A stretch of DNA of 20,808 nucleotides, from positions 1 through 20,808 of IMG/VR virus record IMGVR_UViG_3300026519_000471; one strand, 5' to 3'. This DNA comes from a virus. Shown here one piece after another: positions 954 to 20,808 of this stretch (positions are counted from its first letter, which is position 1; each line of letters begins with the position of its first letter). Both the position numbers and the translations under genes were made by a program. The notes under the pieces were generated by a model. That model had not been told where the DNA came from. It did no database searches and saw only the letters and a list, made by a program, of their open reading frames with translations.

Positions 954-3437
954 TCATGGAGCGTAAGGTCCTACATCGGCACTTGTAAGATTCGCTGGCG
1001 TAATGACTGGATAAGAAGACGTTCCAGATTGTGATGTATTCGTTTCGTTTTTCAGCGTCACAGTGCCGCTATGCGCTTCTACAGAAGTGCTGTCTGCCGG
1101 ATATGGGCGGCTCGAAAATTCGCCGATGATCGCGGTTCCCGTGCATCGCGCCAATGTCACATTGTAGGCTCTTTCCCATGCGGTAATGTCATTTGGCGGA
1201 CTGTCGTTCGTTACTGTTCCCGCATTCACGCGCAATCTGGTCGCGTCGCGGAACTCACAGCCATGAATAAGATGATTTTTACTTTGTATCGTGACGCCAG
1301 TCCATCCCGTCGCACGCGTTCCCTCGAACAGACACCCGACAGCCTGGTGCGAGTCACCATGTCTCATTTCCAGGCGGTTTAAACGCCGAAACGTGCAATA
1401 ATTCCAGCGGATATTTGTGGCTTTCGCTACAATGTTTATACCTAGATCCGGGTCATACATATCCTGGAACAGGGAATATTCGATCTGTGTATCGACATCC
1501 TTGTCTCCTGTTTCGCCGGAATATCCGATGCGAAAACGGGCTCCATCGGAGAGATCGTGCATATAGAGCCTCTTGATGCGCACCCCAGTGGGACCATTCG
1601 ACCCACTGAACCGTGTTTCGTATCCGTAGGCTGTGTAGTTGCCAGTAATCTCACAGTACGCGACTGAAAGTCGGTCGCCATTTAGCTGGTTGAGCAATCC
1701 ATTGCTCTGACCGGCACCACTGAACTTGCACCTCCTAAAAGTGTTATCAGCAGCCCAATTTGTGGCCGTTTCTGTCATTACCCCCCAAAGAAACAGGTAA
1801 GACCCATTCAGGTCAATTGCGGTGAACGAAGCCTGCAAGAGGTTCTCGGCCCGTATCACGATTGGGTTCGCGGCCGTGCCTGACGGATCCATGGACACGG
1901 CCCCATAGCTTCCATCCGCCAGTACGATGTGGTCGCCGGGCTGCGCGGAAGCCAGGGCCGCCGTGAGCTCAGAGGAGTTGGCGACATTCACAGTGCGGAG
2001 CGGATCGGGGTATTCGCCACTCCCAGCGGCACCCGTTACCTCCACATACACCTTGCTGGTCGAGGTCGTCGATCCGCCCGTGATCGTGAAAGCCGCCGTC
2101 CCGTCGCCCGCGCTCGCACCAGACGTGACATTCAGTTTCCCGGCATTCACCGTTGCCGAGGAGACCGCCCCCGTGACGCCGCCCGCAGCAGTGAGTGAAG
2201 GGGCGTCGTCGGGATCGTAAGCCTGTGCTGCTACATCGTACGCTGTGGTAGCGCTCTGCGTTTGGGAGCCCTCCATCGGCAGGGCAACCACCGGGATGTT
2301 CGCCGGGGAGCCGGCGACGAATTGCGAGATTCCGTAGAGCCTGCGCGGCTCCACTGCATTCCTGGCCCGCGCCAGCGCATGCGCTGGCCCGATGAAATTC
2401 GGCGAGATCAGGACCTGTCCGATGCGTCCGTTCCACATCTGCAATGAAATGCCACCGATTTCGAGCGTTCCGCTCGGCATCTGCACGGTGCCAGAAACCG
2501 GCGCATCTTGCTCTGGTATGCCTGTGCTTTCTCGCACACGCCCTGTCCAGCCACCTACAGCTCGTTTGCCGTTGATGTAGAGTTCTGGCAGCGACCCGCT
2601 CTTCCATTGAAATCTGAGATGCATCCAATCCGTCGTCTGCACGCCGGGGCCGCTCTCGACCTGCACCGCCCAATATTCTGTGCCATCGTAGACCCGCAGT
2701 GTGGCGGAGATCGCATCCGCACTGCCCGAATAATACGCTGTCTTGTCAAACCAGAGGAGCACCCCGTGCATGCGGGGATCCGTGGAGTGCGGCCCCTGCG
2801 CGATGATACGCGCATCAGTGCTGGCGCTGTTCGACTTGACGAGCGCCTCGACGGCGAACTCCGTCATGCCGTTCAGAAATGCGCCATCGGCATGGCTCAT
2901 GTGCGAGGTGGCGCCATCGTAAACGCCAACCCAGGGATCGGAGCTGTCGGCGGTGACGCTGGTAACCGTGAGGTTGCGCGCTGTCGTGCCCTCACGATTG
3001 GTGCCGCTCGCGCCAAACCATGCCGCCGTCCAGCCGTTCCACGCCCCGGCCATGTCCTGCTCGGTGGCACCGCTCTTCCCGGCGAGCATCCGGAAATCGA
3101 ACCGGGCGTTCGCGGCAATGGTGCCGGGCCGCACAAAGGCTACCAACCGCCCGCTGGCGCCATCATAATGCACCAGATCCCACGCCAGCGCTCCGCCATC
3201 GGAGACCCGCTCGAAGCGTACATCCTGTGCCGAGGCACTCGTCAGCGCCCCTCCATTTGCCGTCTGCTTGAGCTCGCCGGCGGTCTCGTCGATCAGCAGG
3301 TTGAAGTTGTCGAACTGCACCGGCTGCGCCGGAATTGCGAGCCGCCCTTCCTTCGCCCATCCGCTTGGCGGCGGTGGCGGCGGTGGCTGCGTGATCGGTG
3401 TGCCGATCCGGAAGGGTTTGAAGGGCAGCCCGATCAT
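954..3437 (-). CDS. tail spike with DUF2341, LamG-like and PL6/chondroitinase-B-like beta-helix domains
   Basis: This 827-aa product is a probable receptor-binding, polysaccharide-degrading spike. After a short N-terminus and a run of prolines (18-24), residues 27-120 resemble DUF2341. Residues about 165-355 resemble a LamG/concanavalin sandwich (INGKRAVGGW, LEIGGISLQMWNGRIG). Residues 380-470 look Ig-like, and about 475-800 form a parallel beta-helix. The helix carries AKATN and MRHGD, matching the catalytic Lys and Arg segments of chondroitinase B (PL6); here they are K672 and R692. No T7-type anchor domain is present. The ATG at 3437 forms an ATGA overlap with the upstream fibre stop, so I prefer it to an in-frame start at 3476. 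The lyase half (about 957-1850) has clearly lower GC than the rest of the window. The polymer substrate is unknown. Confidence 0.8.
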   Translation of the reverse strand: MIGLPFKPFRIGTPITQPPPPPPPSGWAKEGRLAIPAQPVQFDNFNLLIDETAGELKQTANGGALTSASAQDVRFERVSDGGALAWDLVHYDGASGRLVAFVRPGTIAANARFDFRMLAGKSGATEQDMAGAWNGWTAAWFGASGTNREGTTARNLTVTSVTADSSDPWVGVYDGATSHMSHADGAFLNGMTEFAVEALVKSNSASTDARIIAQGPHSTDPRMHGVLLWFDKTAYYSGSADAISATLRVYDGTEYWAVQVESGPGVQTTDWMHLRFQWKSGSLPELYINGKRAVGGWTGRVRESTGIPEQDAPVSGTVQMPSGTLEIGGISLQMWNGRIGQVLISPNFIGPAHALARARNAVEPRRLYGISQFVAGSPANIPVVALPMEGSQTQSATTAYDVAAQAYDPDDAPSLTAAGGVTGAVSSATVNAGKLNVTSGASAGDGTAAFTITGGSTTSTSKVYVEVTGAAGSGEYPDPLRTVNVANSSELTAALASAQPGDHIVLADGSYGAVSMDPSGTAANPIVIRAENLLQASFTAIDLNGSYLFLWGVMTETATNWAADNTFRRCKFSGAGQSNGLLNQLNGDRLSVAYCEITGNYTAYGYETRFSGSNGPTGVRIKRLYMHDLSDGARFRIGYSGETGDKDVDTQIEYSLFQDMYDPDLGINIVAKATNIRWNYCTFRRLNRLEMRHGDSHQAVGCLFEGTRATGWTGVTIQSKNHLIHGCEFRDATRLRVNAGTVTNDSPPNDITAWERAYNVTLARCTGTAIIGEFSSRPYPADSTSVEAHSGTVTLKNETNTSQSGTSSYPVITPANLTSADVGPYAP

Positions 3438-6391
3438 GTCATCGCCGTGTAGCTGCCGCCGAGAACCACCCGCCACTCGCTCGCCGAGCGGAAGATGGCG
3501 AAGGTCTCGCCGGCGGGCACCGAGACGCTGCCGCTGGTGGCGCCGGAGATGGTCAGCGCGGCGCTACCAGCATTGAACCCGGGCCATGCGCCCTGGACGC
3601 CGTTCCATGCCGCCGGGAGGGTGAGCGGGCCACTCGTTGTGCCCGTGTACTCGAGCTCGTATCCCTGATCGGCCTCGGCGAGCGTGTAGGCTCCGGAGAA
3701 GCTCCGGACGCCTCTCCGGCCGAGTGCCGCTACCAGAGGGTCGGCCAGGCTCCAGTAGCCGTCCTTGGGAGCCACATCGCCGGCCGCTTTCCAGCTAGCG
3801 GATGCGCCATCCGCGTTGGCGGCGCACTCGAACACGAGCTTCCGCTCCACCCCATTGCCGAAAGCGGTCGCAGCCCTCCAGGTGGTACTGCCATCCTGGA
3901 ATGTGGCGCCGCTTTGGAGTCCGATCGTGACATCCGCTGTCTTCGAGTCGGGGACGGCGACGACGATCTGTTCCAGCGGCTTCGCATCGTTGTGCAGGTC
4001 GATCCGCTGGGCGACCGCATTCCCCGCTGTCGCCTCGAGCTTCGTCAGGACGACGTCGTAGCCGGACCGGCTCAGATACCTGTCGGCACGCGTCGTGCTG
4101 TACGGGGTGGTGCTGATCTGCTTGGTCTGCTCGACCGTCGAGCCCTTGTCCGGCACGAGATCCGGCCGCAGGGCCGCGCCGGACGCGCCCTGCGAATGGA
4201 TTCCCGCCTCGCTGCCATCGGTCAGCACGGTGCCGATGGAGATGCGGCTGAATTTCGTGCCGGTCGTGTCGTCGTCGACGGCGTAGCCGGTGCAGCTGCC
4301 CAACACCAGGCTGTCGACGGCGATCTCGCCGCCGTCGATGCTGCCGTCCCCCTTGCAGGTGACCACGTCGACACAGTCCTCGGCGACGCAGGCGACGACC
4401 GAGACGCCCTTGGAGGGCGCATGCACGTCGATGGCGCCGTCGGTGTCCTGGAAGCCGCGGAACGTGCAGGCGAGGTAGCGCACATCGCGGTCGCCGGCCT
4501 GGTGGGTCGGGTTGCCCACCGTCCCGGCGCTCTGGTTGGTCGCATCCGGCGGCCGGCTGGGGCCGGCCACCGACAGGCAGGAGGCGAAGGTGATGCCGAT
4601 GTTGTCGCCGCCGTGGGTATCCAGGCCGTTGATCAGGCAGTCGTCGGTGACAGCGCCGCGCACCAGCATGTTGGTGTTCGAGCTGCCGAAGGCGATGCCG
4701 TGCCGGCATCGCTCGAAAAACCCACCCTCGACGATGCCGTCGCGGCAGCCGACGAAATAGAGCCCGTAGCGGTCGCCGCTGCTGGCATCGCTGGTATCGA
4801 GCTTGCCGATGCGGACGGAGTCGACGACCCGCGGGCGGTAACAGGCCTCCATGCGCACGAGCTGGCCGCGGGTGGTGTGGGTGGTGGCGGTATCATCGAG
4901 CCTGGCCCCGATGATCGTCGGCTCGATGCAGTATTTCGCTTCCCAGGCCGGGATCCGGGAAGCCGGCGCCGCCGCCGGCGCCTGGGCGAACTCCGTCTCT
5001 GGCGGGCAGATGATGGTCGGCTGCCAGCACGGCCGCAGCTTCGTGATCCGCGCCTTGTAGCTGGTCTGGAAATCCCGCACGACGCCCACATCGAGGGTGA
5101 CCGTCGTGCTGCTGACCGCCTGCACCCGGTGCACCTCGAGGCGGATGCGGTTCGAGCTCGTGCCCTGCACATCGCCGGCGGTGCGGTCGTCCTGCACATA
5201 CACCCAGTCGCCCACGGCGAGCGCGCCGGTGGGATCCGTGGAAAGGCTCAGCACCCGGGCGCCCTCGGCCGCATCGGCCGACAGCGTCCACTCGTCGACG
5301 ACGGTGACGAGGGTCCGGTCCGGTCCGCCACCCTCGGGTGTCCAGGCCGAGTTCGGATACTCGATCTTGAAATCCGCCGGCAGGGGATCGTTGGCGAAGG
5401 TCACGGTGGCGCCGGATACCGCGGTAATGATCGCCTCGTGGCGCTGCCCCGACATGGGCTCGCCGTGCTTGTCCTGCTCGCCACGGATGATGATCCGCGC
5501 ACCGACCACGAACCGCGACATGTCGCCATTCTGCGGGCTCGCGTCGATGGTGATGCTCGTGTCGTTCTGGTTGGCGTCCGCGGACAGCCTGTAGAGGTTG
5601 CTGGTGGGGAATTCGGAGAAGCTCCCCAGCGCGCGGATCCGCACCCCGTAATCGAGCCGCTTGATCTTGCTGCAGCGGCGGAAATCGAGCACGTAGGGCC
5701 GCTGGCTGTCGCGGTTGCGGATGTTGATGGTTCGGCCGATGGCGAGCACGCCACCCGGCGGTGAGACGATCGCGCGATAGGTCGTGCCCTTGGCAAGGTC
5801 GTCATCGATCAGCGCCTGCAGCGCATCCGCCTCGTCCGTGATGCCATCGAATTTGAGGCCCGGCGTCGCCGCGCTCGGGTCGTCGGTGATCGTCGTCACG
5901 GCCCCGCTGGTATCGAAGCCGAGATATTTGCCGGCCCGGGCGGTGGCCGCCGGCAGTTCCATCGCCAGCGTCGCGTCCGTCTCCGGCTGCCGGATCGCCC
6001 GCGCGATCTGGCTTTCGAGCTGGCGTGCGATCGCGGTGAGCCGGTCGAGCTCCGTATTCAGCGCCTTGATGTTGAGCACCGAGCTCGGATAGGGGAAATC
6101 GGTCGTGCGCTCGATCGCGATGTCGGCCACGATCACGACCGTGGCATTCGTGATCGCCGCCCCCAGCGTGATGGAGCCGCCGTCATAGCCGCCGTCGACG
6201 GCGTTTCCGGCCACCGAGAATTCGGTGCTGGTGGTCGGGGAGGTCGTATAGTTGGCCTCGACACCATCGACCCAGACACGGATGTCCTTGAATGCCGTGA
6301 ACTCGAACGGGATCTGGAAGGTGCTCTGGGCCGTGGTACCCACGCTGTAGAGGATGCGGGGCTCGATGTCGGAGATCTGCAGATGCGTCAT
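3434..6391 (-). CDS. tail fibre/spike with T7 gp17-like anchor and beta-helix
   Basis: The product is a 985-aa trimeric-fibre type protein. Residues 1-95 match the T7 tail-fibre N-terminal pattern (short strands around FQIPFEFTAFKDIRVWVDG), which attaches fibres to the tail tube. Residues 105-135 are a likely coiled coil (LNTELDRLTAIARQLESQIA). From about 180 the DGITDEADALQALI and PPGGVLAIG signatures mark a pectate-lyase-3-like parallel beta-helix continuing to about 760. The C-terminal ~100 residues are a small beta domain (LTLPAAW, SEWRVVLGG), probably a tip or trimerisation unit. Its start overlaps the upstream stop as ATGA, and its own stop overlaps the next spike as ATGA. Glycan-binding or depolymerase activity is inferred from the fold; I could not assign catalytic residues. 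Confidence 0.88.
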   Translation of the reverse strand: MTHLQISDIEPRILYSVGTTAQSTFQIPFEFTAFKDIRVWVDGVEANYTTSPTTSTEFSVAGNAVDGGYDGGSITLGAAITNATVVIVADIAIERTTDFPYPSSVLNIKALNTELDRLTAIARQLESQIARAIRQPETDATLAMELPAATARAGKYLGFDTSGAVTTITDDPSAATPGLKFDGITDEADALQALIDDDLAKGTTYRAIVSPPGGVLAIGRTINIRNRDSQRPYVLDFRRCSKIKRLDYGVRIRALGSFSEFPTSNLYRLSADANQNDTSITIDASPQNGDMSRFVVGARIIIRGEQDKHGEPMSGQRHEAIITAVSGATVTFANDPLPADFKIEYPNSAWTPEGGGPDRTLVTVVDEWTLSADAAEGARVLSLSTDPTGALAVGDWVYVQDDRTAGDVQGTSSNRIRLEVHRVQAVSSTTVTLDVGVVRDFQTSYKARITKLRPCWQPTIICPPETEFAQAPAAAPASRIPAWEAKYCIEPTIIGARLDDTATTHTTRGQLVRMEACYRPRVVDSVRIGKLDTSDASSGDRYGLYFVGCRDGIVEGGFFERCRHGIAFGSSNTNMLVRGAVTDDCLINGLDTHGGDNIGITFASCLSVAGPSRPPDATNQSAGTVGNPTHQAGDRDVRYLACTFRGFQDTDGAIDVHAPSKGVSVVACVAEDCVDVVTCKGDGSIDGGEIAVDSLVLGSCTGYAVDDDTTGTKFSRISIGTVLTDGSEAGIHSQGASGAALRPDLVPDKGSTVEQTKQISTTPYSTTRADRYLSRSGYDVVLTKLEATAGNAVAQRIDLHNDAKPLEQIVVAVPDSKTADVTIGLQSGATFQDGSTTWRAATAFGNGVERKLVFECAANADGASASWKAAGDVAPKDGYWSLADPLVAALGRRGVRSFSGAYTLAEADQGYELEYTGTTSGPLTLPAAWNGVQGAWPGFNAGSAALTISGATSGSVSVPAGETFAIFRSASEWRVVLGGSYTAMT

Positions 6392-8895
6392 GGCGCGATC
6401 CCGATGGCGTTGCGGAGGTCCGGCGGACGGCGGGGAGTGGCATCACCGGCGCGCCACCAGAACCGCTGCCCGAAATCCCTGCGGTAGCGGCGCTCGCGCC
6501 GCTTCCAGGTGCCGGCCGCGTCCGGATCGGCGAGCTCCTCGAGGCGGTCCCAGAGCATGCGGTCGAGCGCCAGGCGCGCGTACCAGAGCGTGGTGCCGGG
6601 CGTGTAGCGGCGGGCGAAACGGACGAGGTCGCGGCCCAGACGCGGATCCTTGCCCCCGAGGGCCTCGGCGACATTGCCGATGGTCAGGCCGCCGAGGTCC
6701 TCGAGGAAGCCGGTGCTCGGTCCTGTGGCAGTGGTGGAGATGCCGTGTCCCGCCCTGTCGGTGGCGGCGTAGAGGAAATCCCCGAGGATGCCGGCGCCGC
6801 CACCCTGCAGAAAGGCGGCGAGCCAGAATTCCTTGGTGTTCATCGGCCGCGGATCGCGTCCCGCGGCGATCTGCTTCATCTGGGAGGAGAGCGCACCGGA
6901 GAAGGTCATGGCGGTGGCGAAGGCCACCAGATAGAGGCCGCGGGCGTCGCGCGTGGCGAGCGCCGCCATGCCGCGCATGGCATGGGTCATCAGAATGGTG
7001 AGGCCGAAACTCTTGTACTGGCCGAAGGCGCGGGTGACCTCGCCGAGAAATTTTCCCGGCCGTGTGCCCATGGTCATCATCGAGCGCTCGAGCGGGCCGG
7101 GCGTCGGCACGGCGAAGCGGGTTTCGGCGGCGATGATCTGCTGCAGCCGGTGGGCGGCCTCGAGCGCATCCCGGTCGCCGCTCCTGACGAACGCGACGAT
7201 GTCGAAGAAATGCACACCCTCCGCCTCGAGGACCGGGCCGGCGCGCAGCCGGTTCCACAGTTCCGGTGTCAGACCGCCACGCTGGAAGGCGCGGCGGGTG
7301 GCGGCCGGCAGCCGGGCGAAGGGGCGCTGCCGCAGCTCGGCGATCGAGGCCATGAACTCCATGCCGAACGCGTGCTGCAGGGCCTGCGTGTGGGCACTGA
7401 GCCCCGAGGCGCGGATCACGGTGTCCGCCACCTTTTCCGGCAGGCCACGGCCGACGATGTCGAACTGGTGACGGATACGGCCGGTCGCGGCGCGGGCCCA
7501 GGCATCGGCCACCAGACCCATGCGCAGCGCGATCTTGCGGTGCTCGGCGTTGCGCGGATCGAGCAGCTTGACGTAGCGCGCGAGGATCCGTCCCGCGGGG
7601 ATGCCGTTCCAGCGGGCGGTGAAGGCGGTGGCCACGAAATCGGTGGTCGAGGACAGGGTGGCCGAGCCGAGCTGGGCGGCGGACAGCCACGCCCGCAGGC
7701 CGCCACCGATACGCGCCCAGAACTCGTCCACCGGCACATTGAGTTCGCCGCTCACCGCCAGGTACAGGTTTTCCAGCGCATCGGCCACGCGCTTGGCCTT
7801 GAAGATCCGGATACGTTCCATCGCTGGCCCGCCCGTGGCGCGGCGGACGGCGTCCTGCAGTCCGGTATCGGCCAGGAGACGCACGGTGTGCTGTGGGTTG
7901 GGCCCGAGGACCTCGAGCATGGCGATGTCCCGGGCGAAGCGCTCGAGATGGCCCATCAGGGCCTTGAAGATGCCGGCGGTGCCCTCGCCCCACTGTTCGT
8001 TGTAGGCCAGCCAGGCATCCGGGCTCTGCCACTCGAACACCCGCGGATCGGTGCGGGCGTTGGCCCGCTTTCCCTTTCCGCGCACCGTGCCGGGCTGGAG
8101 GTCGGAGAGGCCTCCCGTGCGGATGCTCTCGAAGGCCCGGTCGAGGATCTCCTCGATCTTCTCCGGCGAGGCCGGCAGGCCGGTATCGAAATCGCGGATC
8201 ATCAGACCGCCCGCAGCGATCTGCTCGCGCATGAAAGCCTTCCAGGTGGCGCGATTGCCGCTGGTGAACAGCTGCGCGTTGTGGTGCGGGTTCGGCAGTC
8301 GCCAGTCCTTGCGCTCGAACAGGGTGCCGCCCGCGGCTTTCCAGCGTTTGGCCATCCACTCGGTGACCTCGTGCCAGGCCCGGGCGTACTCCTGGACCAG
8401 CGGATCCCCGGTATTGCGCCCGAACAGTTCCTGGACGAATTTTCGCAGCTCGACGGTCTCGTGCTGCAACCCGAGGAGTTTCGGGCGCAACGCCGCGACG
8501 GCGTCGGCGAACATGGCGTGGGCGGTGCCGAGAATGGCCTCGCTCCGGGCCCAGACGTTCGTGAGCCCGCCGATCTCCCATGGGTCGCGGTCCAGCAGCG
8601 CAAAGGCGCCCGCCAGAATGCCCCTGGGGTGCGTGCGCGCGGCGTCGAGCGCCCGTTTCTGCGCGAGGATCTGCAGCACCTTCTGGATCTTCTGCTGCCG
8701 GGCCTCGGCCTCGAGCCGCTCGGCCGTGCGCCGGCGGGCGGCGGCCTCGGCGGCGGCGTCACCCATGCTGCCACGGTATTGCTGCCGCTGCCCCTCGAAC
8801 ATCCGCCGGACCCGCTCGGCCTCGCTCCGCGTGATCTTGCCGGCCTTGACGGCCTTCGCGAGGCAGCTTTCCAGGGGATCGCGTCTACGCGGCAC
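6388..8895 (-). CDS. large internal virion (ejection) protein
   Basis: This is an 835-aa, mostly helical protein. The N-terminal ~100 residues are charged and coiled-coil-like (KITRSEAERVRRMFEGQRQQ, AEAAARRRTAERLEAEARQQ). The C-terminal part has hydrophobic stretches at about 650-710 (LYLVAFATAMTFSGALSS, FWLAAFLQGGGAGILGDFLY) and ends with an aromatic motif QRFWWRAGDATPRRPPDL near residue 810. I recall this C-terminal pattern from large internal or ejected proteins of podoviruses. By position, between tail tube and fibre genes, it would be the analogue of T7 gp15/gp16. I see no lysozyme or transglycosylase active-site motif. I chose the GTG at 8895 because GGAGG sits 8 nt upstream; the GTG at 8904 abuts that site. 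It overlaps the upstream gene by 11 nt. Confidence 0.72.
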   Translation of the reverse strand: MPRRRDPLESCLAKAVKAGKITRSEAERVRRMFEGQRQQYRGSMGDAAAEAAARRRTAERLEAEARQQKIQKVLQILAQKRALDAARTHPRGILAGAFALLDRDPWEIGGLTNVWARSEAILGTAHAMFADAVAALRPKLLGLQHETVELRKFVQELFGRNTGDPLVQEYARAWHEVTEWMAKRWKAAGGTLFERKDWRLPNPHHNAQLFTSGNRATWKAFMREQIAAGGLMIRDFDTGLPASPEKIEEILDRAFESIRTGGLSDLQPGTVRGKGKRANARTDPRVFEWQSPDAWLAYNEQWGEGTAGIFKALMGHLERFARDIAMLEVLGPNPQHTVRLLADTGLQDAVRRATGGPAMERIRIFKAKRVADALENLYLAVSGELNVPVDEFWARIGGGLRAWLSAAQLGSATLSSTTDFVATAFTARWNGIPAGRILARYVKLLDPRNAEHRKIALRMGLVADAWARAATGRIRHQFDIVGRGLPEKVADTVIRASGLSAHTQALQHAFGMEFMASIAELRQRPFARLPAATRRAFQRGGLTPELWNRLRAGPVLEAEGVHFFDIVAFVRSGDRDALEAAHRLQQIIAAETRFAVPTPGPLERSMMTMGTRPGKFLGEVTRAFGQYKSFGLTILMTHAMRGMAALATRDARGLYLVAFATAMTFSGALSSQMKQIAAGRDPRPMNTKEFWLAAFLQGGGAGILGDFLYAATDRAGHGISTTATGPSTGFLEDLGGLTIGNVAEALGGKDPRLGRDLVRFARRYTPGTTLWYARLALDRMLWDRLEELADPDAAGTWKRRERRYRRDFGQRFWWRAGDATPRRPPDLRNAIGIAP

Positions 8896-10708
8896 CGGCG
8901 GCACCTCCGATCAGGCAGGCGATGGGGCCCTCGCGCAGGGCGTTTTCCTCGCGCTCGAGGTTCTCGAGCAATTCGCGGGCGCTCAGCCGTCCGTCTTCGA
9001 GCTGTACCTCGAAGTCTTCCGCCTCTGCGATCCGCCTGGCCTCGGCGATCCATTGCTCGGCCAGAGCATCGGTGTCATCGAGCACTCCTGCGCTGTCGCG
9101 TGCCTGGCGGGCCCGGTCGGAGAAACGGTGCGGCGCTCGCACCGGCCGATCCGCGGAGGTCTTGACGGCTGCGCCCGCCGTCCCCATTGTCGGTTCGGAT
9201 GCGCGCGTCGTGTCCAACCGGCCGGTTCGCCGATCCACCGGTGCGGCTCCGCGAGATCCCGGACTCTCTCGAGGCTGGGTCGTCCGCTGATCATAAGGCG
9301 GCGCGGCAGTATCCCCGGAAGGGCCTGCAAAAGCTCGTCCGGGGGATCCCACCGGGCGGATCGGCGAAATCTCCTTCGCCCCCGGATCGTCCAGTACGTG
9401 AATGGTCACTACCCGCCGCCCGGTTCGGCCGCTCACGGGGGAATCGACGTAGACCACACGCTCCCCGTCTGCCCGCTCGACGACCCATTCGCGCTGTTGT
9501 CCGCGTACCCGTGGCGCACGGGTACGGATGACCTCGGGAAACCGAAGAACGTCGTCCAAAGTGACCTGCTTGGTTGCTGCCTTCGGGCTTTTCTCTCCAT
9601 GCCGCCAGATGAACTTGACGAGCCCCCAGCCGGCGCCCTTGACGCGCACGTCGCCGAGGCCCTTGAAACCACCCCGCGCGATGATCGTCTCCTCGATATC
9701 CTCGGGGCGGATGTTCACCAGTGGATCGTCCGCCGGACCGGACGGCTCCTGCATCACACGCCTGTATGCTCGCCTCAGGTCCTCGCGTTCCCGCACCATG
9801 CGCTCGACGTCGACGATCTCGCCGCTGCGCACGGCGCGCAATGTTTCCGGCAGGAGTTCGCGGTGCACCCGGCTCGCCGTGTGCCTGTCGATGCCGAGCC
9901 CCCGGGCCAGGCGGTCGATTTCCTCGAGCGTCTTCTCCTGGTGCTGCACGACCCGGCTGGCGTCCCGAACATGCAGTGGCAGCCGCTCGGCGCGCCCCAT
10001 CAGCGCACGGGCCCCCTTCGCCAGAGCCTTGATGCCACCGCCGAGGACGCCACCTCCGGCGGCGGCCAGGGCGACATTGGTGGCGCTCTCTCCGAGCGAC
10101 ACCTCGATGCCGAGTTCCTTCTTCTGCGGCGCCACCATGGCCTGGATGCCCGCCTCCGACGCAGCGGCGATGCCGGCCTCGATCATGGCGGTGCGCAGAA
10201 TGCCGGCAGCGGCGGGCGCGCCCCAGGCCATGGTGGCGATGTTGATGGGGTCCACCATCACGGCCGCCATGGTGCCGGCGAGATCACCCAGCGTGCCGCC
10301 GAGCGTCGGCACCTCGCCGGCCCTGGCGCGTTCGCTCCGGATGTCCTCGACCTCGCGACGGATGTCCGCGTCGAAGCTGTCGGGGTCGGGAAGATCGGGA
10401 TGCGCGGCGCGAGCCTCGATCAGCGCTTCCCTGGCGCGCTTCAGGGCTTCGCGCTGGGTCGGGCCGCGCAGCGCGAAGGGGTTCGGCAGAGCTCGTCCCG
10501 TTTTTTCCTCGAGGGCGTCGAGCGCCGTCTGCCAGCGCTCGTAGCGCATCCATTCGACACCGACGGAGGTTTCGGTCCGGATCGCATCGCGGAAGGCGAG
10601 TTCGGTCCGGTCCCAGAAGGTGGCCGGCTGCTGCGGCAGGACCGGGCGGCGGGCATAGTCCTGCAGAGCCTGTCTGCCGTCCGCCGCAAACAGGTCGAGC
10701 GCGCTCAC
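8885..10708 (-). CDS. internal virion protein carrying a BECR/MuF-C-like nuclease-type domain
   Basis: This 607-aa protein appears modular. Residues 1-130 are helical. Residues about 137-230 are Ala/Gly-rich and hydrophobic (LGDLAGTMAAVMVDP, ALAAAGGGVLGGGIKALA), suiting membrane insertion or core packing. Residues 240-330 are helical, and about 355-445 contain GWGLVKFIWRHGEKS followed by TLDDVLRFPEVIRT and beta strands with W408, R417, Y420 and T435. That layout resembles the MuF-C/PBECR group (barnase-EndoU-colicin-RelE fold nucleases) of phage polyvalent proteins. A disordered Pro/Arg/Ser-rich linker (460-540) leads to a helical tail, SARELLENLEREENAL. The GTG start forms a GTGA overlap with the upstream stop and has GGAG 8 nt before it. 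Nuclease activity is inference; the domain could be degenerate or structural. Confidence 0.72.
   Translation of the reverse strand: MSALDLFAADGRQALQDYARRPVLPQQPATFWDRTELAFRDAIRTETSVGVEWMRYERWQTALDALEEKTGRALPNPFALRGPTQREALKRAREALIEARAAHPDLPDPDSFDADIRREVEDIRSERARAGEVPTLGGTLGDLAGTMAAVMVDPINIATMAWGAPAAAGILRTAMIEAGIAAASEAGIQAMVAPQKKELGIEVSLGESATNVALAAAGGGVLGGGIKALAKGARALMGRAERLPLHVRDASRVVQHQEKTLEEIDRLARGLGIDRHTASRVHRELLPETLRAVRSGEIVDVERMVREREDLRRAYRRVMQEPSGPADDPLVNIRPEDIEETIIARGGFKGLGDVRVKGAGWGLVKFIWRHGEKSPKAATKQVTLDDVLRFPEVIRTRAPRVRGQQREWVVERADGERVVYVDSPVSGRTGRRVVTIHVLDDPGAKEISPIRPVGSPGRAFAGPSGDTAAPPYDQRTTQPRESPGSRGAAPVDRRTGRLDTTRASEPTMGTAGAAVKTSADRPVRAPHRFSDRARQARDSAGVLDDTDALAEQWIAEARRIAEAEDFEVQLEDGRLSARELLENLEREENALREGPIACLIGGAAGAA
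8904..8908 (-). promoter_or_regulatory. Shine-Dalgarno GGAGG deciding the ejection-protein start
   Basis: On the minus strand GGAGG is followed by 8 nt and then GTG at 8895. The earlier in-frame GTG at 8904 overlaps the Shine-Dalgarno itself, so it is unlikely to be used. Confidence 0.6.
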
Positions 10709-12918
10709 TGCCCGATCTCCACCGGCACGCCGGTCATGTCGCGGCGCCGGGCGGCTGCGGCGCCGAGGTCGAACACCCATGGCTGACCGTCCGGCGTGGC
10801 CAGGCCGAAGCCCTCGACGGTCACGAGGTACCTGCCGTCGCCTATCGGCAGAAGCTCTCCGAAATCGCGCACGGTCTCCGCGCCCACCGGCCTGCCATCC
10901 GCCAGCCGACCACGCGTTTCCGGGGGGCCGAGATCCTCGTCCGTGAGCTGCTCCATGAGCGTGTCGAATGCGTCCTGGTCCATGCCGCGCACCGGCGGCG
11001 GGAGCGGTGCGCCCTTCCACTCCACGAGACCGCCCGTGACGAGCTCGATCGCCCGCTGTAACCGGTCCTCGTCCAGGGTCGCGGTGAGGTCTCCCTCCTC
11101 CGCCGACAGCGCTGCGTAGGTGGCCCGTACGGCGCCGCGGGCGGCCTGGAGATAGCCCGGCAGGTGGCCGAATGCCCGGCCGAGGTCTCGCGATACGGTC
11201 TCGCGCCAGTCCGCGTCCTGCTGCGGCAGCAGCTTGGGGTCGGCCCTGGCCAGCTCGAGACCCTTGAGGATGCGCTCCGCGACGACCCGGTCCTCCGACG
11301 AAAGGCCGGCGGCCAGAGCAACTGTCGGCGCGGTCTTTCCTGTGACCTTTTCCAGGACCGCGCGGAACTGGGCCGGCGGCAGAGCATCACGGAAGGCGTC
11401 AATCACCGAGAGCCGCTCGGCGGCGGTGGCGGTCTCCAGCAGACCCGCCAGACGGTCGATCTCCGGCTCGCGCAGGGGCGGCACCTCGATGCCTTCCCGT
11501 GCGGCCACCCGGCCGGCGGCGTCCACCCGCTGCCGAAGGGTGTCGCGGAGGGCCGTCGACGAGCCCCAGTCGAGCTCGGGTACGCGATCGATGACGCCGG
11601 CGCCTTCCGCCCAGCCCAGGGGATCCTTCTCCAAGGCCCTCCGCTTGGCGTCGAAGGAGCGCTTCATGGCGTCGAGCTGCTCGACATCTCCCTCGAAGCC
11701 CCTGCCGGCGCGCATGCGGGCGTCGAGCTCGAGGATGCTCTGGCGCTGCTCGGCCAGCGGAAGCCGTGCGAACGCCGTCATCTGCTGCTGCCGTACCGCC
11801 ACCCCCGTGAGGCGGTCGGCGAGCTCGTCCTCTCCGGCGCTGCGCAGCGCCTGCACATGCTCCTGGAGGGTGCCGGCGGGAAGCGGATAGCCGAGCTGCA
11901 GACGCTCGAGGTCCTTTGCCGCATCCTGCACGGCCTGGCGCGCTTCGAGGCGCCGGAGGCCTTCGGCATCGGCGATCCTGGCCTCGACCGTGCTGGCGAT
12001 CGCCTGCCGTCGCGCCTGCGGGACTCCCAGTGCGGGGTCGTCGAGCAGCCGGTCGAGCCGCTGGCGTGCGGCTCGGACACCCTTCGTTCCGCCGCCGGCG
12101 GCGCGATAGGCGTCGAGGGCCTCGGCGGCGATCGTCCTGGCCTCGTCCTCGTCGGCCTGCGCCCTGCGGATCACCGCCGCGCGCTCTGGCGCCATGAGCC
12201 CGGCCTCGACGGCCGTCTCCAGCAGCGCCGCGAGCCTCGACGCAGCCTCCCCGTATTCCGGAGCATCGGCGCGCCCGGCGGCGGCGAGGTTGGCCATGTC
12301 TCTCTGGAGGGCACCGAGCTCGGCATCGATGGCGTCGCGCTGGAGCGTTCGCTCCTCGCGAAACCGCTCGTCCAGCAGCGCCGTGCGCGTCTGGAGACCG
12401 ATACGTTCGAGCTCGAGAACGGCGGTACCACGCAGAGAATCCGGCACCTCTTTCGCGGTGCCCTGCAGGTAGCCCTGCCAGGCCGCCGAGAATGCGTCGG
12501 GGTCGGCGCGGTGCCTGTTCCTGAGCTCGGCTGCACGCTTCCTGGCGTCGAGCGCGAACTGCGCGATGTAGGCCGCTTCGGCTCCACGGTTGAAGGCCCG
12601 TCCGGCCACTGTGTCGTCGGCCATGCGCCGGATGGTGAGGTTGCCGTCCGGATCGCGCACCACTGCCTCGTTACGCCCCGCGCGGCCCGCCTCCGCGGCT
12701 ACCTGACGCCTCTCCGCCGCGATCTCCTGCACCGCGACATCCCGGGCGACGTTGGCGAGCTGGCCGAACGCTCCGGCGAGGCCGCGGGCTGCGCGGACCA
12801 CGCCGATGTTCTGCGCGATCCGTGTCCGCTCGGGAATGACGAGGTTCCCGCCGGGACCCACGCTGGTCGGCGCCAGCCGGCCCACCGCGCCCGAAGCGGT
12901 GCCGATACCCTCGGCCAT
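10705..12918 (-). CDS. helical internal virion protein (ejection/core protein)
   Basis: The 737-aa product is almost entirely helical, dominated by Ala, Arg, Glu, Leu and Asp, with extended coiled-coil-prone stretches. Residues 138-170 contain DPDAFSAAWQGYLQGT and a following helix, a pattern I associate with long internal virion proteins of podoviruses. The C-terminal ~60 residues turn beta-rich (GDGRYLVTVEGFGLATPDGQ). No enzyme motif was recognised. It lies between a small core protein and the BECR-domain protein, overlapping the first by 1 nt (TGATG) and the second by 4 nt (GTGA). This implies coordinated stoichiometry. Assignment as a core/ejection protein analogous to T7 gp15 rests on size, composition and gene order, not on clear sequence homology. 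Confidence 0.68.
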   Translation of the reverse strand: MAEGIGTASGAVGRLAPTSVGPGGNLVIPERTRIAQNIGVVRAARGLAGAFGQLANVARDVAVQEIAAERRQVAAEAGRAGRNEAVVRDPDGNLTIRRMADDTVAGRAFNRGAEAAYIAQFALDARKRAAELRNRHRADPDAFSAAWQGYLQGTAKEVPDSLRGTAVLELERIGLQTRTALLDERFREERTLQRDAIDAELGALQRDMANLAAAGRADAPEYGEAASRLAALLETAVEAGLMAPERAAVIRRAQADEDEARTIAAEALDAYRAAGGGTKGVRAARQRLDRLLDDPALGVPQARRQAIASTVEARIADAEGLRRLEARQAVQDAAKDLERLQLGYPLPAGTLQEHVQALRSAGEDELADRLTGVAVRQQQMTAFARLPLAEQRQSILELDARMRAGRGFEGDVEQLDAMKRSFDAKRRALEKDPLGWAEGAGVIDRVPELDWGSSTALRDTLRQRVDAAGRVAAREGIEVPPLREPEIDRLAGLLETATAAERLSVIDAFRDALPPAQFRAVLEKVTGKTAPTVALAAGLSSEDRVVAERILKGLELARADPKLLPQQDADWRETVSRDLGRAFGHLPGYLQAARGAVRATYAALSAEEGDLTATLDEDRLQRAIELVTGGLVEWKGAPLPPPVRGMDQDAFDTLMEQLTDEDLGPPETRGRLADGRPVGAETVRDFGELLPIGDGRYLVTVEGFGLATPDGQPWVFDLGAAAARRRDMTGVPVEIGQ

Positions 12919-13364
12919 CAGGGAGCCTTCCCGGTTTCCCGGCGCGCGCGGGCCAGCGAGAAGAGGTTGCCGGCAGCACCGCCGACGCCGCCTACGAGCC
13001 CCCCGATGGCATTGATTCCGGCCTGCTCGGCGCCGAGCCCGAAGCGACGCTGCCGCCGTCTGCTGTCGAGGCGGATCGCGGAAATATCGTGTTCGGCTTC
13101 GCGCACCGTGGTCCTGCGGATGACGTCGGCCTGGGGCGAGGTGAGGCTCAAGCCGCGGGCGGCACGCAGGGCATTCTGGGTGGCCAGCGCCTTCGCCAGT
13201 CGCTGCCGGCGCACGACCTCCTCCTGCTGCCCGGCGAGCTCGGCGGTTTTTCTCTCTTCCTCGTACTGTGCGCGCTCGGCCTGTGCGGCCCGGTAGGAGG
13301 TGTAGCCCTGGGCCAGACTGGCCGCCGCCGTCGTCACGGCTGCGATCGTGATCGGGTCAGCCAC
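12918..13364 (-). CDS. small internal virion/core protein, T7 gp14-like by position
   Basis: This encodes a 148-aa protein. The N-terminal ~20 residues form an Ala/Thr-rich hydrophobic helix (ITIAAVTTAAASLAQGY). Residues 24-75 are a charged coiled coil (AQYEEERKTAELAGQQEEVV, LAKALATQNALRAARGLSL), and a glycine-rich segment lies near 118-135 (GGLVGGVGGAAGNLF). This hydrophobic-helix plus coiled-coil layout, with the RGLSLTSPQAD motif, is typical of small internal proteins encoded just after tail tubular protein B, the position of T7 gp14. The GTG start at 13364 has GGGAGG 9 nt upstream and overlaps the previous gene by 8 nt in the string GTGGCTGA. It overlaps the next gene by 1 nt. A role in forming the ejection channel across the outer membrane is inference. 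Confidence 0.72.
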   Translation of the reverse strand: MADPITIAAVTTAAASLAQGYTSYRAAQAERAQYEEERKTAELAGQQEEVVRRQRLAKALATQNALRAARGLSLTSPQADVIRRTTVREAEHDISAIRLDSRRRQRRFGLGAEQAGINAIGGLVGGVGGAAGNLFSLARARRETGKAP

Positions 13365-19870: not shown

Positions 19871-20286
19871 CCTCGGTCTCCTTCCGGCCATGGTGTGCAC
19901 CCGGCAGCACGTAGGCGGCGGTACAGCCGCCATGGCGTCCAGCTCGTGAGCCAGGGCACGCCCAGCAGGTGTTCCACCAGACCCACGCAGGTCATGCACG
20001 GTCTCGGGATCTGCCGCGCCCCGTCGGAATAACGGCAACGCAGCCACCGTCCGTGTTCGAGGCCATCGGCGAGCACCAGATCGACGGTCTCCTGCGGCAA
20101 GGGCCGCACGATCATGCCGCCGATCTTGCTGTCGGCGAGCAGCCAGATGTCGCTGGCGGCATCGTAACCGAGCGCGAACACGTGCCGGAAACCGGGCCGG
20201 AGAAAGCGGCACCACCAGTGCCGCTCGCCATAGTCGACGAACGCGACCAGCCATTCCGGCAATGGCTGCGGGGGCCAGTGGATCAT
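19858..20286 (-). CDS. phage protein of unknown function with His...Cys motif (possible permuted papain-like fold)
   Basis: This 142-aa protein is rich in aromatic residues: PEWLVAFVDYGERHWWCRFL, GFRHVFALGYDAASDIWLLA, then RPCMTCVGLVEHLLGVPWLT and TPWRLYRRLRAAG. I recall homologues encoded between terminase and portal genes in proteobacterial phages. H35 followed by C100 in a helix-like C-V-G-L-V-x-x-L-L-G context recalls the His-before-Cys order of circularly permuted NlpC/P60 (LRAT-like) papain folds. That is inference from a motif only, and no enzymatic role is shown. The ATG at 20286 forms an ATGA overlap with the HTH gene and has GGAG 8 nt upstream. The longer open frame to 20379 overlaps that gene, so I reject its start. 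Confidence 0.72.
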   Translation of the reverse strand: MIHWPPQPLPEWLVAFVDYGERHWWCRFLRPGFRHVFALGYDAASDIWLLADSKIGGMIVRPLPQETVDLVLADGLEHGRWLRCRYSDGARQIPRPCMTCVGLVEHLLGVPWLTSWTPWRLYRRLRAAGCTPWPEGDRGWVH

Positions 20287-20522
20287 TCTGCCGTCTCCAG
20301 CAGTACGATGCGAAGCCCGAGGGCCTCGGCCCACGCTACCAAGGCGCCGAGGGTCGGCGCGTGGCGTCCGCATTCCCATTTGCTGACCATGCGCTCGGCG
20401 CAGCCCAGTCGTTCGTCGAGTTCCTCCTGGCTCAATCCCAACCGCCGCCGTCGGCGCGCGAGCTCGTCGCGCAGCCGCACGGTCTCCGGGTGGACGATCG
20501 ACAGGCGGGCGGTGGCTGTCAC
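20283..20522 (-). CDS. small XRE-family helix-turn-helix DNA-binding protein
   Basis: The 79-aa product has a clear XRE/Cro-type helix-turn-helix at about residues 27-68: LGLSQEELDERLGCAERMVS, then KWECGRHAPTLGALVAWAEA. The SQEEL first helix, the recognition-helix VSKWE and the P-T-L turn are standard for the family. An Arg-rich stretch, LARRRRRLG, precedes it. It contains no other domain and could act as a dimer. It is encoded within the late operon between terminase and portal, with a GTGA overlap to the terminase stop and an ATGA overlap to the next gene. Its start is GTG with AGGAG 9 nt upstream. It is therefore a late protein, perhaps a late-gene modulator or packaging accessory; the target site is unknown. 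Confidence 0.85.
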   Translation of the reverse strand: MTATARLSIVHPETVRLRDELARRRRRLGLSQEELDERLGCAERMVSKWECGRHAPTLGALVAWAEALGLRIVLLETAE

Positions 20523-20808
20523 GCCCGCAGTCTCCTGGAGAGCCGGGCGGAACGGTCGGTCTGCTGCGCCCGGGTGATACGGTCCCAGACGCTGTAGGGC
20601 CTGGCTGTCAGGCCGGGATCGGCGGCACTCCGCTTGCGGCGCACGAGGTCGGCGCCCTCGCCGCCACCGAGCATCAGGTATTGCAGCGCATCCGCGACAT
20701 GGCTGTAGCGGTTCTTGTCCGGATGATCGTCGTAGCGCGGCATGGTGCCCTTGACCTTCAGGCGGCGATAGCAGTAACCGCCGGCCATGGCGGCCTTGAG
20801 CATCCGGC
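20519..20808 (-). CDS. terminase large subunit, C-terminal part (cut by window edge)
   Basis: Only the last ~96 residues lie in the window; the frame is open through the right edge, so the in-window ATG at 20803 is internal. The segment DDHPDKNRYSHVADALQYLM followed by LGGGEG is the typical C-terminal end of podoviral large terminases. The Asp in SHVADAL would be the last metal-binding residue of the RNase H-like nuclease domain that cuts the genome during headful or site-specific packaging. The remaining tail (VWDRITRAQQTDRSARLSRR) is basic. The ATPase domain is outside the window. The TGA stop overlaps the HTH gene's GTG start as GTGA. Confidence 0.85.
   Translation of the reverse strand, partial: RMLKAAMAGGYCYRRLKVKGTMPRYDDHPDKNRYSHVADALQYLMLGGGEGADLVRRKRSAADPGLTARPYSVWDRITRAQQTDRSARLSRRLRA

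Follow-up and report, generated by a model that had tools for sequence, protein, structure and literature searches.

A gp16-type phage ejection protein that carries a putative PBECR3-related RNase domain in a cargo slot

Ejection proteins are mostly seen as conduits for DNA. According to PMC8954989, the phages T7, P22 and epsilon15 eject internal virion proteins. In Iyer et al. 2017 (PMC5512222), virion-packaged PBECR RNases are predicted and a signature of a His plus a Ser or Thr is defined for them, polyvalent proteins are proposed to be injected, and proteins with a lysozyme plus DdrB-ParB in Acinetobacter prophages are considered probably injected. Virion-borne PBECR and DdrB-ParB proteins were already predicted in 2017. 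What is new here is that a PBECR3-related domain fills a swappable slot of a gp16-type carrier. The open-access papers searched describe neither this domain family nor a gp16-type cargo slot, and absence there does not mean absence overall.

The window, by which we mean the whole stretch of 20,808 bases analysed here, is the IMG/VR virus record IMGVR_UViG_3300026519_000471, and its minus strand carries every recognised virion gene: a portal-like gene (phrog_332), a major head gene (phrog_3437), tail genes (phrog_394 and phrog_376), and the genes for a small internal virion protein of 148 aa (12918..13364; phrog_418), a gp15-type head/ejection protein of 737 aa (10705..12918; phrog_992) and a gp17-type ejection/virion structural protein of 838 aa (6388..8904; phrog_684, E 4e-153). 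The last product aligns over most of its length with proteins of phiV10, SPN1S, BcepC6B and other epsilon15-type podoviruses. Between the gp15-like and gp17-like genes lies the minus-strand gene of interest (8885..10708), which has a GTG start at 10706-10708 that overlaps the stop of the upstream gene and encodes a 607-aa homologue of epsilon15/phiV10 gp16, matching phrog_342 (E 3.4e-10), a family labelled 'internal virion protein with endolysin domain'. In phiV10 the annotation of the gene upstream of the phrog_684 homologue points to similarity with epsilon15 gp16, and in VP5 that of the phrog_684 homologue to similarity with epsilon15 gp17; the order in the window, phrog_992 (gp15-like), the 607-aa gene (gp16-like) and phrog_684 (gp17-like), matches the epsilon15-type order. 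The original prediction, made from the DNA alone, had taken this product for an ejection-type protein, and both the flanking genes and the gp16 homology of its N-terminal part and C-terminal tail bear this out.

Other features of the window deserve mention in their own right. A tRNA-Val gene (46-120) lies at the record edge, beside the last tail gene, and is a possible prophage attachment site. The minus-strand products of 840 and 985 aa (954-3476 and 3434-6391) are tail-spike-like in look; the 985-aa product has a weak PHROG tail match (phrog_13768), which the 840-aa product lacks. At the right edge, a small XRE-like helix-turn-helix ORF sits beside the apparent C-terminal end of a large terminase (20283-20522 and 20519-20803, minus strand). 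The window contains no direct repeats of relevance.

The 607-aa protein can be divided into four parts, all encoded on the minus strand. The carrier N-terminal part (residues 1-298; 9815..10708) has hydrophobic segments at residues 143-161, 166-184 and 212-230. It is followed by a conserved cargo domain related to PBECR3 (residues about 299-443; 9380..9814), delimited by alignment, hhalign and AlphaFold2 (AF2), then by a linker (residues 444-555; 9044..9379) that is poorly conserved, with low identity, and judging from its sequence probably disordered, and finally by the conserved C-terminal tail of gp16-type carriers (about residues 556-607; 8885..9043). All the features singled out beforehand in this ORF, namely GWGLVKFIWRHGEKS, the TLDDVLRFPEVIR helix, R417, Y420 and T435, stand at the residue numbers given for them. 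Polyvalent proteins combine at least two disparate enzymatic domains, whereas in the window protein only one candidate was recognised; two are combined in its relatives L002 (with DdrB-ParB) and L031 (with SLT).

Copies of the domain were first found with the whole protein in one viral and one Rhodospirillales record, and the rest through a degenerate FIWRHGE pattern and alignments; tblastn with the protein or the domain against phages and plasmids gave no match. There are 13 distinct full-length copies, that of the window and those of 12 other phage or prophage records, the latter 39-67% identical to the window's domain. One further record (L046/L059), whose copy is cut by the contig end, stands outside the 13. 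Pattern matches in L030, L033 and L034 lay outside an ejection gene, with the rest of the domain absent, and were discarded. When 385 genomes from the host class of L003 were searched whole, the single additional match, a weak one in L007, sat in an unrelated repeat-containing protein and was rejected.

The domain is the best conserved part of the gene, with 53-70% identity to five relatives, compared with 21-37% in the N-terminal part before it and 28-34% in the C-terminal part after it. In the 13-copy alignment H370 (codon 9599..9601, minus strand), G371, K365, S374 and W408 are invariant, position 435 (Thr in the window, in the last strand; 9404..9406, minus) is Ser or Thr in every copy, position 431 (Arg in the window; 9416..9418, minus) is always Arg or Lys, and position 406 (9491..9493, minus) is Arg in 12 of the 13. 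Position 420 is Tyr or Phe. The conservation of a His/Arg/Thr set, anticipated by the original prediction, therefore stands for H370 and S/T435 but not for R417, the conserved basic positions being instead R406 and R431. Since the Ser/Thr is in no search pattern, and since four copies (L003, L038, L041 and L042) were retrieved by patterns that do not require the His, the conservation of these two positions is not solely a search effect.

Searches of Pfam, NCBIfam, PHROGs and PDB sequences with the domain found no BECR match; the weak matches that did come up (PHROG 7913, of unknown function, E 0.0018; DUF1150; TlmB) have no known meaning. With a cut-off of E<=10 the PF18812 (PBECR3) model picked up no copy in any of 13 records, and hmmscan gave no match to it either. 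Compared by hhalign with a PBECR3 profile of eight sequences from genomes and phages, which include Helicobacter jhp1044-type proteins, Rhodobacter phage RC1, a Rhizobium phage and others, the domain scored 34.7 (P 3.1e-5, probability 73%), as against a mean of 11.5 (s.d. 2.4, maximum 20.3) in 300 column shuffles. The alignment runs over about 80 columns from the His to the C-terminal Ser/Thr, and sets the His on the invariant His of PBECR3 and the Ser/Thr on its Ser/Thr. The score was still 30.5 when the His motif was masked, and stayed at 28-35 when any single PBECR3 member was dropped, while the control profiles PBECR2, DdrB-ParB and SLT scored 11-15. For PBECR2 (PF18810) the score of 11.5 equalled the shuffle mean of 11.5, and PBECR3 itself was likewise negative against PBECR2 in this comparison. 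MuF_C (PF18819) had no hmmscan match in the domain, and a single strong MuF_C sequence was retrieved; the genomes searched yielded no sequences of PBECR4. The relationship to PBECR3, as judged from sequence profiles, is well supported, specific and remote. Because the PF18812 model is blind to the domain and its structural matches are weak, we regard it as a divergent relative of PBECR3 and not as a member of the Pfam family; the BECR/PBECR likeness first proposed holds to that extent.

The AF2 model, built with the 13-row alignment, has a strand at model positions 64-70, a helix at 86-98 and then four strands (pTM 0.71, core pLDDT 80-92), and S/T435 falls in the strand at 133-140, the last of the core. 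His370 falls in a loop that directly follows a strand and adjoins the model's least confident part; it is not clearly inside the N-terminal helix, where the PBECR clade has its His. The first five VIA matches were RelE, BrnT, a Salmonella toxin-antitoxin complex, HigB2 and a second RelE (Z 3.1-3.6), and with the first AF2 model ranks 1-12 stood at Z 3.5-4.2; all structural matches were below Z 5, NTF2-like folds scored close below or were mixed in, and Foldseek against BFVD and PDB found nothing significant. The helix, the four strands and the top rank of RelE, BrnT and HigB are compatible with the BECR-type fold predicted at the outset, but since these toxin matches at Z 3-4 are close above the NTF2-like folds, we take the structural evidence as supportive only.

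Weak structural matches of this kind, in a slot within a structural protein, are what one would also see if the domain were an inactive or non-catalytic BECR-like module that binds nucleic acid or packs against the genome and portal in the ejection machinery, and phage Mu MuF has a PBECR domain that PMC5512222 describes as inactive. We consider this unlikely: the His, the Ser/Thr and the basic positions are kept in copies only 39-67% identical to the window's domain, and many gp16 homologues of working phages do without the domain, from which it follows that it is dispensable for ejection as such.

The slot itself is defined by what surrounds it. The N-terminal parts of gp16-type proteins with and without the domain are homologous at P 6.6e-41 for one N-terminal type and at P 4.1e-12, by group profiles, for the type that includes the window, and their last 55 residues at P 6.1e-13 (score 60.5, shuffle maximum 13.4). 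These sequence comparisons strongly support the view that the domain sits in a cargo slot, with a conserved N-terminal part ahead of it and a conserved C-terminal tail behind. They likewise support the position proposed for a cargo domain, but the N-terminal hydrophobic region, which had been thought to suit cargo, belongs to the carrier and is common to homologues without the domain.

The contents of the slot differ between phages. No enzyme is recognisable in phiV10p19, Shamal, YeP5 and K225; BcepC6B has SLT, APEC DdrB-ParB, TPWB-05 SLT plus DdrB-ParB, and L016 GH108. The APEC protein bears the annotation lytic transglycosylase and is similar in sequence to the SLT stretch of TPWB-05. The window and several relatives have the PBECR3-like domain alone, L031 has SLT and then the PBECR3-like domain, and L002 has the PBECR3-like domain plus DdrB-ParB. 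Proteins of L018 (1765-4440), L042/L043, L045 and L038 have long slot regions without a Pfam match, which may hold further unrecognised cargo domains.

With murein hydrolases among its neighbours in the slot, and SLT directly ahead of it in L031, the domain might be thought to act in the envelope, aiding DNA passage through the periplasm like SLT or GH108, its PBECR resemblance reflecting shared ancestry only. That we hold to be very unlikely, as the PBECR3 relationship comes with the putative catalytic residues kept, and the same slot is occupied by DdrB-ParB, a predicted DNase-type intracellular domain.

In L003 the carrier and a gp17-type part form one fused protein. Klebsiella and E. coli phage proteins match its residues 36-247 with their residues 53-273, and its residues 470-1378 with their residues 243-1125; since its flanks align in this way, the stretch 248-469, which contains the domain, is read as a clean insertion. 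Residues 991-1319 of L003 also have distant similarity (E 5e-7) to the 6388-8904 product of the window, which indicates a gp16-/gp17-type fusion in the group of L003. The sister contigs L041 and L048, about 90% identical in DNA, are 96% identical in the N-terminal part of the protein, 70% in the domain and 34% in the C-terminal part. In L048 extra genes follow the domain gene, and a sequence similar to the carrier tail forms a 131-aa ORF of its own, which suggests recombination at the slot. The extra genes, about 2.7 kb and fibre-like (L048:7628-10436 compared with L041:7583-7761), come directly after the cargo-domain gene. On the slot, L003 and L041/L048 comparisons together, the domain is found in three carrier contexts and varies independently of its carrier.

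Sister phages that differ in the domain and C-terminal part while the N-terminal part stays constant recall arms-race modules, and toxin-antitoxin and polymorphic toxin systems commonly use BECR folds (PMC5512222). The domain could then be a toxin or anti-competitor device that works inside the cell producing it or on superinfecting phages, and is not delivered. We give this little credence: the domain is built into an ejection protein whose gene is a late virion gene, the window has no recognised antitoxin-like gene beside the 607-aa gene, and PADLOC gave no match.

The reading that we moderately favour is that of a gp16-type ejection protein with a PBECR3-related, RNase-type cargo that is delivered to the host and cuts RNA early. 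By homology and gene order, the protein, encoded by an epsilon15/phiV10-like podovirus, would travel inside the capsid and enter the envelope and the host together with the DNA. Its slot contains, as seen at the profile level, a divergent relative of PBECR3, a family of predicted metal-independent RNases. The putative active site consists of His370 and Thr435, probably with Arg406 and Arg431, as conservation and the PBECR3 alignment suggest, and catalysis would follow the His plus Ser/Thr signature given for PBECR RNases in PMC5512222. By analogy with the polyvalent proteins proposed to be injected, the most likely course is that the domain enters the host cytoplasm as infection begins and cleaves RNA in it, although its cytoplasmic exposure is not assured, because murein hydrolases, whose place of action is the periplasm, also occur in this slot. 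Such cutting would shut down host expression or blunt RNA-based or early defence; the phage may thus turn on host RNA, attacking or reprogramming it, as soon as infection starts.

We see an even chance that the gp16-type slot at the gp16/gp17 junction is general among short-tailed phages and recombinationally exchanged, and that it loads murein hydrolases, DdrB-ParB and the PBECR3-related RNase family into the virion for delivery to the host along with the DNA. If true, a fixed slot in which enzymes are swapped would make ejection proteins carriers of early effectors, and its cargo includes a predicted RNase family without a Pfam, NCBIfam or PADLOC match. The 13 homologues and two putative catalytic residues make it possible to test whether host RNA is a target of short-tailed phages ahead of their first transcript.

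The locus differs from each of the known systems that it resembles. PBECR3 (PF18812), which comprises phage BECR RNase-like domains of polyvalent proteins, shares with it the profile match of His with His and Ser/Thr with Ser/Thr, and likewise occurs in the company of virion genes and next to DdrB-ParB, but the window domain has its own conserved N-terminal block (DPLV.I.P.DIE...RGGWKGLGDVEVKG) and KFIWRHGE motif, escapes the PF18812 model and is carried by a gp16-type ejection protein. The gp16 proteins of epsilon15/phiV10 (phiV10p19) and BcepC6B are likewise encoded upstream of a gp17-type phrog_684 gene and have homologous N-terminal parts and C-terminal tails, but phiV10p19, with no recognisable enzyme, and BcepC6B gp16, with an SLT murein hydrolase, lack the PBECR-like domain. 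Acinetobacter phage TPWB-05 and E. coli phage APEC (SLT plus DdrB-ParB) use the same carrier and the same slot for other cargo, without a PBECR-like domain. The RelE, HigB and BrnT toxins, the top structural matches of the window-domain model (Z 3-4), are free-standing and have antitoxins, and their structural score is weak, with no sequence match to the window domain. Finally, T7 gp16 is also an ejection protein that joins an enzymatic domain, a transglycosylase, with channel functions; its enzyme, however, is N-terminal and periplasmic, and the review PMC8954989 describes no PBECR-like domain for it, whereas the gp16-type protein of the window carries its PBECR3-related domain between the conserved N-terminal part and the C-terminal tail.
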